From NCBI GenBank assembly GCA_001574975.1, contig KQ965740.1, positions 691,524-755,523 on the forward strand: a DNA stretch of 64,000 nt, written 5' to 3'. The notes under the pieces are model-generated. The model did no database searches. It worked only from the letters and a program-made list of their open reading frames with translations, and was not told the DNA's origin. Position numbers and translations under genes: made by a program. Shown here piece by piece: positions 36,692 to 41,200 of the stretch; position 1 is the stretch's first letter; every line of letters begins with the position of its first letter. The DNA comes from Gonapodya prolifera JEL478. Its lineage: Eukaryota; Monoblepharomycota; Monoblepharidomycetes; Monoblepharidales; Gonapodyaceae.

Positions 36692-37999
36692 ATGGTGTCA
36701 TCGACAGTTCGCTACAGGCCGCAGCTCGCTCCACGCACACTCAAGTCGCAGTCCGCAACACACGACCATTCGGACCCCGTCGCATTCTTCACGGTCGAAG
36801 TCCTGTTCAAGGAGTAAGAGCAACTCCCGACTATGTATGCGAGAGAAACGTGGTGTGCTTACTTCGCGGAATCAACCTGTGCAAAACACACCACCCCCGA
36901 AACACACCAATAACAGCAATATCGCCTATAAAGAAGGAGCCTACAAGGTCCGCTGCTGCTCAAAAACTACGTGCGAATTGTTGCTTAAGAAGCTTGCAGA
37001 AAATGTGGAAGTCTCTTGGAGTGAGTTGCAAGATCAGTCACGCTTGTTGAAGGTTGGAACTGCCGCACAACGATTCACCGAATGTTTCCCTCTTTCAATT
37101 CATCGCTCTGCGTGAATCCACACTGATTCAGCCGATCTAAATGCTTCGATTGCTTCGTCGGGGGAGAAACTCTTGTCAAGTGACCGCCTAACCTCGAACA
37201 ACATCAAGCTTAGCGTGAAACGTGATCGCGAGGTATCGCATTTTACCTCAAGTGGTACCACTTCACAGTCGGTTGCTGTCACAACACTGACGGGCAAGCT
37301 AGTTACGGTGCAGGCCCCTGCAGTTGACCCAGCCCAGCGCAATCCCCTCGTAGGGGGAATGAGAGTGTTTGTGCGAACGCTGACAGGAAAGGCAATTACG
37401 ATCTACGTCAATCCGAGCTCTACCACCGAGGATATTAAGTACAAAATCCAAGCGACAGAAGGGATACCCCCAGATCAACAACGCCTCATTTTCGCTGGAA
37501 GGCAACTCGAAGATGGGAGAACCATGGCCGACTACAACATTACACCCGAGTGCACTATGCATCTTGTGCTTCGCCTGAGAGGAGGAATGGTGCGAGCAAA
37601 GACACATGGCAAAGATCGACAAATCGCTCATCACCAGCTTTATAGTATATGCCCTCGTCAGGACGCGTTGAGTTCGACGCGCTCCCAATGGACCCCCGTG
37701 CAGAATCTCCACACGTCGGAATTCGCTGTGACAACTGTGGAGCCGTTGACTTTAGTGGCCCACGATATAAATGCACAGAATGTGTCGATTATGATCTTGT
37801 GAGTTTTACATTGGTTTCCCCCAGAGCAGCCACTTTCGCCTAAACTGCAGTTCACCTTCCCGTTCAGTGCTCGTCATGCGAGGAGCATTCTGACATTTTT
37901 CACCCTCTCGAACACCCTCTGGTCAAAATTGCCACGCCCAACGCGCTTCCTCAGATCTTCGAAGGAGCGAAGTACAAATCTACCTGGGATGAGGAGTGA
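36692..37999 (+). CDS. Ubiquitin-ZZ zinc finger fusion protein
   Basis: Five exons (36692-36813, 36917-37020, 37132-37589, 37646-37798, 37868-37999) join in phase to 322 codons. Residues about 32-115 (FFTVEVLFK to NIKLSVK) may form a divergent beta-grasp. Residues 152-227 are a full ubiquitin ([39 protein letters not shown]) retaining L8, I44, V70 and the Gly-Gly, but with Arg at 6 and 48, Thr at 33 and Pro at 63; lysines 11, 27 and 29 remain. After GG comes Met, a spacer, and a ZZ zinc finger (residues 256-295) with ligands C256, C259, C271, C274, C280, C283, H291 and H295. ZZ fingers bind N-terminal or histone-tail peptides. Cleavage after GG would free a modified ubiquitin plus a ZZ protein; otherwise it is an integral domain, as in autophagy- or proteasome-linked adaptors. 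Confidence 0.85.
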
Positions 38000-38235: not shown

Positions 38236-41200
38236 ATGCCCACGACCTCTGATCCTTCAGAGGCCTCCGAAACAACTGGTCTGCTCGGTGGTACACCCGA
38301 TGCCACGTCGAACAGCCGCCGTGTTTGGTCTCTCGGCCACCCACGGCCGTCCCTCGAGGATGTGGAAGACGAAGGGCCTGAGGGGGAGCCCGAAGAGGGC
38401 TTATGGCCCACCATTCGGAAAGTCGCCACGAGGCGGGCGTACAGACAGGTCAGGATTGTGATTGTCCTGGTGGCCATGGCGGTTGGTCTCCTCATCGGTG
38501 GGTTCGTGGTGCAAACGCTCACTGCGGCAGCAAAATGATTTAATCTGGACCTCACGACGGGTGCAAAGCTGGGTCGATAGTAATTTTTCGGAAGGCGAAA
38601 GCGATGTCAGCCCATCGCCGGCCGCTGTGGAGTAGACTCCGGCTTCCCTCCTCGGTTGTAAGTGACCGAGTCAACACAAATCGACATGGAAACGATTGGA
38701 TAACTTTGGTATCCTTAGATCCCTTTGCACTATGATTTGGATTTCTACACTGACTTGAAAAACTTCGAGTTTGGGGGCACTGCCACGATCCAACTGACAA
38801 CCCTCGAGGAGACCGACGTCATTGTTTTGAACACCAACTCGCTTCAACTAAGCGATGCCGAGCTGACGACGTGGAGTGGTGCTGACCGCGTTGCCGCACA
38901 AGCTGGTTCCTCTTGGGAGAGCCCACTTTTCAACCAGACAATAGTTCACAACTCGCAAATTGCGTTCAAGCTTGCTGCTCTCCTTCCAGAAGGAGCGAAT
39001 GCAACGATTCGTCTCAAGTACAAGGGTAACCTCACTGACTCTTTAAAGGGGTACTATCGATCCTCATACATTGACGATAATGGCAACAAACGTTGGCTGG
39101 CAAGCACTCAATTTGAAGTAAGTTATACTCGTCTGGTGAAGTACAATATCAGTGTGTGACCCTGGAGATAGTCCACAGATGCTCGAGCAGCGTTTCCGTG
39201 CTTTGATGAGCCGGCGTTCAAAGCCACTTTCAGCGTCTCTATGCACGTTGAAAAGCCATACCACGCCATTTCAAATATGCCCGTGCTATCCGTATCTGAC
39301 TACATACCGGGGAATGGACAATCAGCCCTTCGGAAAGGCGCTTGGAAGACTTACACGTTCCAGGAGAGCCCCAGAATGTCGACCTACTTGGTAGCATTTG
39401 TTACAAGCGAATTTGAGTACATTGAAACGTTGACTCCAAGGGGAACAAAGTGAGTTATGTTGTTGCTGTCATTGAGTCAGTGTAGTAAACTCGAATGTTG
39501 AAGAATCCGAGCATACACCCAGCCCAATCATACCGCCCAGGCCCAATATGCTCTTGATGTTGCCAGAGATGTACTTCCGTACTATGAGGCGATGTACGGA
39601 ATTCCATTCCCTCTCCCGAAGATGGACATGATCGCAGTTCCTGATTTTGCAGGTGAGATCAGAGGAGACCACAAATTGCAGTTTTAGAGTCCATGCGTGA
39701 CCAGATCCCCCTCTTTGTTCCAGCTGGTGCCATGGAAAATTGGGGATTGGTCACGTATCGCGACACGGCGCTCCTTTACGACCCTCAGCTCTCTTCTGCT
39801 TCTGATAAAGAGCGTGTGGCTGTGGTGGTTGCGCATGAGTTTGCTCACATGGTGTGTTAATTTACAAATGTCGAGGTCTTTCCATGCACTCAACATATGC
39901 CGAATTTCAAGTGGACAGGCGACCTTGTGACCATGCAGTGGTGGGACGGTCAGTTCTTGCTTACGCAAATACAACCCCAACCAACACTAATATCGTCAAC
40001 CTACCCAATCTTAACCCTCAAAAACCGCACCCTCCCGACCACCCCAACACTCAGACCTGTGGCTAAATGAAGGCTTTGCAGACTTCATCGAACACATCGG
40101 GACAGATGCCGCCGCAAGAGCAAGCGGCGAGAACTGGCGTATGCAAGACCAGGCTATTGTTGACGCCCAAGTCCCGGCGTTCGACACAGACTCCAGCGCG
40201 TTCACGCATCCCGTTGCTGCCAGTGTCGTTGATCCTGTCGAGATTGATGCTCTGTTCGACGATATTAGCTATGCTAAAGGAAGTTCTCTGATTCGCATGC
40301 TCCGGGCATGGGTGAACGATCTCGGCGGCGATAAGGGAGGAGTTGGGGATGTACCAGATCGTGACTATTTCTTCAGGTAATTTGGCTTGTCCACCACCTC
40401 GAATTCCATCTGTGCCAATTCCTTTCGTTTCTTTCTTGAAAACAGCCGAATGCACGAGTACTTATCATCACACGCTTTTCATAATGCCCGAACAAGTGAG
40501 CTCTGGGAAGCCATGGACCCAACTGGATCTTTTGGAGTCAATGCGACAATGTCGACCTGGAGTGAGTCTTCGCCTTCTTGAAAAGTTGGTTATGGCGTTA
40601 CACTTCACACACTTGAACGTGAACAGCGGATCAGCCAGGCCATCCTGTGGTAACAGTAAATTGGACGTCAGCAACCACTTTCACTGTCCAGCAACAACGA
40701 TACACATTATCACACATCAATGGTGTCCGTCCCGGTGGCCAGCTCTGGACTATTCCGTTCACTTTCGAAATTTTTGACGCGGAAGGCCGTCTTATTCAGA
40801 GTTCCAAAACTCTTTTGCTCTCGGGAAGCGAGCCAGTAGAAATCCAGGTTTCTACTTCTTCGATTCCCATCTCTGCATCAGGATCACTCGTACTCAAGGC
40901 AAACGTCGGACAAACAGGATTCTATCGTGTCGTCTACCCATCTTCTACGTTTTCTTCCATCGCCAAGAACCCATCAGCATTTTCTCTTTCTCCGGCTGAC
41001 CGGACAAGTTTGGTACTTGACGTTTTCGGAGCATCTCTAGGAGGACGTGATGATAATGTTGAGGGCATGTTCGATTTCCTTACTTCTTTACTCGCCAAAG
41101 AGAACGACGTCATTGTGTGGTGGGCAACCTTCTCTCGATTGACTTTCGCATTCTCGCGAAACGGTGCTTGGAATCTTCACCCCGGTCTTTTCCGACTTCA

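Follow-up and report, generated by a model that had tools for sequence, protein, structure and literature searches.

Few known proteins are as constrained as ubiquitin, and linear ubiquitin fusions normally undergo fast cleavage. In Gonapodya prolifera JEL478, a gene at 36692-37999 (plus strand) of the window, i.e., the whole stretch of 64,000 nucleotides that was analysed, encodes a diverged ubiquitin which lies inside a longer protein and is joined to a ZZ zinc finger. Is this ubiquitin released as a tag, or does it work where it stands? Natural ubiquitin variants inside longer proteins show which parts of the molecule matter in a fixed setting. Judged from the sequence, the most likely answer, to which we give a probability of roughly 0.45, is that the protein is an adaptor in which ubiquitin would act as a docking ligand and the ZZ finger as a reader of N-termini.

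The gene and the domains of its protein

The splice sites were picked by hand from the reading frames and from related copies of the gene; a gene predictor was not used. Splicing gives five exons and a protein of 322 amino acids with no internal stop, and the four introns (103, 111, 56 and 69 nt) are all of the GT-AG type. An earlier note on this DNA had arrived at the same start, end and number of exons, and had described a fusion of ubiquitin to a ZZ finger through Gly-Gly-Met; indeed, Pfam finds both domains in the one spliced open frame. The 151 residues upstream of the ubiquitin are absent from that note. The protein consists, in order, of an N-terminal domain, a ubiquitin stub, ubiquitin and the ZZ finger.

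Exon 1 (36692..36813, on the plus strand like all the features given here) encodes residues 1-40 and part of 41, which form an N-terminal extension and the first strand of the N-terminal domain; its start and donor positions agree with those of two related copies, L034a and L062. The core of the domain, which includes a stretch of 31 residues, is encoded by exon 2 (36917..37020), which aligns with L033, L034a and L062. Exon 3 (37132..37589) holds the end of the N-terminal domain, the linker, the ubiquitin stub, the ubiquitin and Met228. Exon 4 (37646..37798) encodes a conserved segment of 17 residues and the first part of the ZZ finger, and exon 5 (37868..37999) the remainder of the finger, the C-terminal tail and the TGA stop.

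The ubiquitin domain (37359..37586, residues 152-227) is recognised by the Pfam ubiquitin profile PF00240 with E=2.2e-25 (residues 154-225, profile 1-72 of 72). It is identical to the canonical ubiquitin of the same genome at 55/76 positions (72.4%) and differs at 21/76. Its C-terminal LRLRGG is followed by Met, by intron 4 (37590..37645, GTGCGA...TATAG), which lies immediately 3' of the Gly-Gly-Met codons, and by the ZZ exon. Lysines 11, 27 and 29 are retained and the other four are changed (K6R, K33T, K48R and K63P), so that the 76-residue ubiquitin, its tail and its four substitutions are seen again as the earlier note had listed them. The hydrophobic patch which the note had called intact also stands: 13/13 tested positions, which we take to be those of the Ile44 patch, the tail and the E1/DUB contacts, are unchanged, R42, Q49, H68, V70, R72 and R74 among them. 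The probability of this under random placement of the changes is 0.0095 (0.093 for the patch alone and 0.13 for the tail alone), which are modest values that ignore structure and site tolerance and depend on the set of positions chosen. The ordinary sources of ubiquitin in the genome are polyubiquitin genes on two contigs (C32 and C44), a Ub-S27a gene (L040) and a Ub-L40 gene (L041).

The ZZ finger (37727..37918, from C256 to H296, PF00569 E=2.3e-10 on the spliced protein) is split by the intron at 37799-37867. It is complete, as had been claimed: its ligands are C256xxC259, C271xxC274, C280xxC283 and H292xxxH296. Among 41 distinct PDB sequences matched at E<=0.01, those of MIB1, HERC2 and KCMF1 are nearest to the ZZ profile of the family, and p62 ranks lower. 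The ZZ domain of p62 is described as holding N-termini in a pocket with three acidic residues, D129, D147 and D149 (PMC8038991), and that of HERC2 likewise as binding N-termini via acidic pocket positions (PMC9001736). When these positions are mapped by the spacing of the cysteines, all three are Asp in the window protein (D257, D276 and D278), and two of the three are acidic in L033, which has Lys at the second, and in L034b.

Residues ~33-106 align as a domain which is conserved in four copies (the window gene, L033, L034a and L062). Pfam gives a weak, sub-threshold match to UN_NPL4, a ubiquitin-fold family, over residues 46-102 (E=0.0022, 18.9 bits vs a cut-off of 21.9), and a UN_NPL4 match is obtained for one of the four members scanned singly. 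Profile comparison with ubiquitin found no relationship, and the search against solved structures gave no match at E<=10; a second ubiquitin-fold domain at the N-terminus is only suggested. An AlphaFold model of exon 3 alone has a mean pLDDT of 31 and was left out of the evidence. PB1 was considered as an identity for this domain and dropped, the Pfam scan giving no match. A WTDL motif within the domain, similar to an Atg8-binding motif, was set aside as well, since neither L033 nor L034a conserves it.

Between this domain and the ubiquitin lies the stub (37272..37358), where a stretch of 19 residues resembles residues 3-21 of canonical ubiquitin with a score reached by 1/5000 shuffles; against the gene's own ubiquitin, 8/5000 shuffles score as high, and in a DNA test 13/2000. 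The stub ends with NPLVGG, which abuts Met1 of the ubiquitin. Because of this resemblance, and of the Leu-Val-Gly-Gly placed directly at Met1, the stub looks like a decayed ubiquitin unit that once stood ahead of the present one. L033 and L034a were examined for a similar stub, and neither has one that could be recognised.

Related copies and the constraint on them

The genome (47.6 Mb, 207 contigs) was searched with three proteins of the family as queries, which revealed at least four related copies at three places besides the window gene; such copy numbers are lower bounds, since the genome searches score the best candidates only. L033 (contig C5) is an open frame of seven exons and 303 amino acids with the same order of domains, in a model built by hand in which one donor is GC and another is a weak GTTGGG. 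It is 41% identical to the window protein over the whole length, so the arrangement of ubiquitin and ZZ finger goes beyond chance. The 13 residues just after the ubiquitin are identical in the two proteins (13/13). The ubiquitin of L033 is 47% identical to ubiquitin and carries R72V and G75L, V70 being changed as well; it keeps 6/7 positions of the Ile44 patch (P=0.040) and 10/13 of patch and tail together.

The other three copies are damaged. L034a (contig C27) is full length, with a TGA inside LRLRGG, more damage in the ZZ part, and a frame change or an unrecognised intron upstream of the ubiquitin. L034b, which adjoins it, is truncated at the 5' end: what is left of its ubiquitin part is the final 21 residues, with an internal stop and a tail that reads LRLGGG, followed after a damaged join by the ZZ exons. 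L062 (contig C35) is truncated at the 3' end and holds the first exons only. An intron follows Gly-Gly-Met directly in the window gene, L033 and L034a, while the two parts of L034b are separated by 13 nt only. Thus, two of the five copies (the window gene and L033) look functional and three are broken, which means that the family is not stably maintained. Relatives sought in bacterial and archaeal genomes gave 113 pattern matches and in viral contigs 11, none of them confirmed; none were expected, since this is a fungal gene with introns.

Over 291 aligned codons of the window gene and L033, pS is 0.86, i.e., saturated, and pN is 0.41. By part, pN is 0.32 for the ZZ finger, 0.38 for the ubiquitin, 0.46 for the N-terminal part and 0.61 for the linker before the ubiquitin, which is the least conserved. 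When the window ubiquitin is compared with four canonical units, pS is 0.81-0.90 and pN 0.20-0.21. Saturated silent differences together with a lower pN speak for purifying selection over a long time and against decay, the saturated pS allowing no exact ratio.

The lysines vary between the copies. K33 and K63 are missing in all three that were compared (the window gene, L033 and L034a), and K6, K33, K48 and K63 are lost in both the window gene and L034a, where they are replaced by different residues in each. The loss of 4/7 lysines in the window ubiquitin has a hypergeometric P of 0.087 given 21 random changes. L033 has lost three (P=0.83) and retains K6 and K48. In L034a, which is damaged and shares its ancestry with the window gene, five are gone (P=0.024); the figure is rough, as three inserted residues were left out of the comparison and two gaps and a stop scored as differences. 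Selected lysine loss was therefore not accepted as shown on these three P values. The chain-limiting ubiquitin of the earlier note fares accordingly: K33 and K63, absent three times out of three, speak for it, whereas the P of 0.087 at 28% divergence and the K6 and K48 of L033 do not, and lysine loss as a chain-limiting feature is suggestive at best.

An adaptor or a precursor

The ubiquitin had been seen before either as released with a ZZ partner or as a fixed ligand in an uncleaved adaptor. Both options are sensible, and the second has gained support from L033, which retains the fusion without G75 and R72. In such an adaptor the ZZ finger, with its complete acidic pocket, would grip the N-terminus of a cargo protein, and the ubiquitin, with its intact Ile44 patch, would serve as an internal ligand through which the complex docks on ubiquitin receptors, which might be those of the proteasome, Cdc48 or the vacuolar sorting machinery. 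The cargo would then be handled as though it were already ubiquitinated. The ZZ domains of fission yeast Nbr1 are described as bringing cargo to the vacuole via the ESCRT route (PMC9582228), and an Nbr1-like route of this kind is one possible setting. The binding of cargo, the docking partner and the uncut chain as the main working form are predictions for the window protein. If they hold, the reading of N-termini and a ubiquitin signal would be combined in one chain, and an E3 ligase would be bypassed.

Because of G75L and R72V, L033 is not plausibly cut or conjugated, and should undergo neither. Since most of the patch, the ZZ finger and the junction are nevertheless preserved in it, cleavage does not appear to be needed for the function of the family, and a function in one chain is the simplest role that the two open copies could share, given that the fusion is kept in a copy which probably cannot be cut. 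From this, the role of the ubiquitin seems to be mainly that of a docking surface within the protein, not of free ubiquitin. The adaptor has difficulties of its own, however: the LRLRGG-Met of the window copy and its 13/13 patch and tail positions suit cleavage, and L033 has only two of the three acidic pocket positions and a changed V70.

The main rival is a processed precursor, which we regard as a real possibility, favoured less than the adaptor. Housekeeping deubiquitinases would cut after Gly76 and yield two products: a two-domain modifier, made of the N-terminal domain and a ubiquitin with a free Gly-Gly, and the ZZ part as a separate protein of 95 residues. The modifier would be conjugatable and hardly extendable, since its M1 lies inside the chain and K6, K33, K48 and K63 are absent. 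This fits the intact junction with its unchanged patch and tail, and the loss of these four lysines in both the window gene and L034a with different replacements. The remnant in L034a, which reads LRL-stop-GGM, probably once ended LRLRGG too, and the other genes of the genome in which ubiquitin is joined to another protein (S27a, L40 and ubiquitin-AN1) should also be cut. On the other hand, L033 is open despite its lost G75 and R72, L034b has LRLGGG, the loss of lysines in the window copy does not by itself reach significance, and there is no evident reason for the ZZ finger to stay fused if it is always cut off. A more specific form of this idea, a second ISG15-like modifier that evolved from polyubiquitin as an N-extended ubiquitin without M1, K6, K33, K48 and K63 sites, made as a precursor with the ZZ finger, seems unlikely to us; if true, a single cut would give a chain-capping modifier and a reader of N-terminal signals that may place it. 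Whichever product is considered, no ubiquitin of 76 residues would be set free, since residues 1-151 precede Met1 and contain no complete ubiquitin for a deubiquitinase; the cut after Gly-Gly would leave the N-terminal domain attached. In this respect the first of the two earlier options loses ground. The adaptor and the precursor can both be partly true, as the window copy may be cut in part or wholly.

It is rather improbable that the gene is a former polyubiquitin-ZZ fusion in decay, still open and no longer used. Three of the five copies are indeed broken (by stop and frame damage in L034a, 5' truncation in L034b and 3' truncation in L062), and this ubiquitin, a protein normally almost invariant, has diverged by 28%, but five open exons, GT-AG introns, all the zinc ligands and every tested patch and tail residue are preserved, and silent changes are saturated against a pN of 0.20-0.21 to canonical ubiquitin and 0.41 to L033. 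An erroneous joining of two neighbouring genes is very hard to credit. It would explain the place of intron 4, exactly 3' of Gly-Gly-Met, and why the unspliced ubiquitin frame continues for 70 codons to a stop; the same join and the same intron place recur in L033 and L034a, the phase is kept, and the gap of 56 nt has no room for a promoter. The interest of the family lies in its two open copies: one keeps the conjugation tail and the other has lost it, and the ZZ finger and the whole or almost the whole Ile44 patch are preserved in both. They are a natural experiment on ubiquitin as a tag vs ubiquitin as a docking surface.

Known ubiquitin fusions and other loci

Ubiquitin fusions described in algae include Ub-actin and Ub-NiSOD, with ubiquitin at the N-terminus, inside or at the C-terminus (PMC6332867). 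Like these, and like Ub-S27a and Ub-L40, the window gene joins a Gly-Gly ubiquitin in frame to another protein; it differs in that its ubiquitin is diverged and internal and is fused to a ZZ finger. In ubiquitin-AN1 proteins (ZFAND4/An1 type), a zinc finger follows the ubiquitin. A gene of this kind is present in the genome on contig C153 (L049:1500-2900, minus strand), with two or more canonical ubiquitin units, an in-frame tail and an AN1 finger (PF01428 E=2.1e-9 for the exon piece downstream). The join to the AN1 exon was placed by eye. Ubiquitin followed by a zinc finger therefore occurs in two different forms in this genome: AN1 is another zinc fold, and the ubiquitin units of L049, whose 5' end is outside the model, are canonical.

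In OASL and the UBL-UBA shuttles (Rad23 and Dsk2), a ubiquitin-like domain that is not conjugated serves for docking, a role like that predicted for the ubiquitin of L033. In contrast to them, the window protein has no UBA or OAS match, and the window copy keeps its Gly-Gly. With p62 and NBR1 it shares a ZZ finger with an acidic pocket for N-termini and a possible function as cargo adaptor, and unlike them it carries ubiquitin rather than binding it via a UBA. Pfam gave no match for PB1, FW, UBA or OAS (for PB1 and UBA at E<=1, two proteins scanned whole). ISG15 and FAT10 are tandem ubiquitin-like modifiers, and the product of a cut may likewise have two ubiquitin-fold-like domains in a row ending with LRLRGG, but with a stub between them and with weak support for the N-terminal fold. 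ISG15 is described as identified in vertebrates only (PMC9722776). Among the matches listed in the open-licence literature there is no ubiquitin-ZZ fusion. Within this scope, and no further, the statement of the earlier note that it knew of no described system with this architecture stands; the fusion appears new relative to known ubiquitin fusions, although relatives may well be present in databases of fungal proteins.

Several other loci of the genome encode ubiquitin-like or ZZ domains. A diverged ubiquitin (a stretch of 37 residues) with a C-terminal extension, in which a ZZ finger was not seen, is found at L036:2498-2700 (minus strand; C5:658500-663500); a sequence after it, CAVCLEVL, looked RING-like by eye and was rejected as a RING finger, as Pfam gave no match. 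On contig C73, near its end, a ubiquitin variant (L035:2818 onward) reads LRLRGG-GPVDGREKW and is part of one open frame of 406 residues that continues into an Arg/Ser- and Pro-rich tail. Diverged ubiquitin-like stretches, one with an LRLDGG end, are present on contig C3 (L045:1870-2530). L037 (C133) and L038 (C36) are near-identical ubiquitin-like genes, called Dsk2-like by eye, which are either a recent duplication or uncollapsed alleles. Two ZZ-rich loci, L063 (C25:340500-347000) and L064 (C18:154500-161500), have seven and nine ZZ matches, respectively, in similar blocks.

Downstream of the window gene and on the same strand, a frame that resembles a membrane anchor by eye, and for which Pfam gives no match, precedes a gene for an M1 aminopeptidase (window 38236-39159, PF17900 E=8.1e-21).
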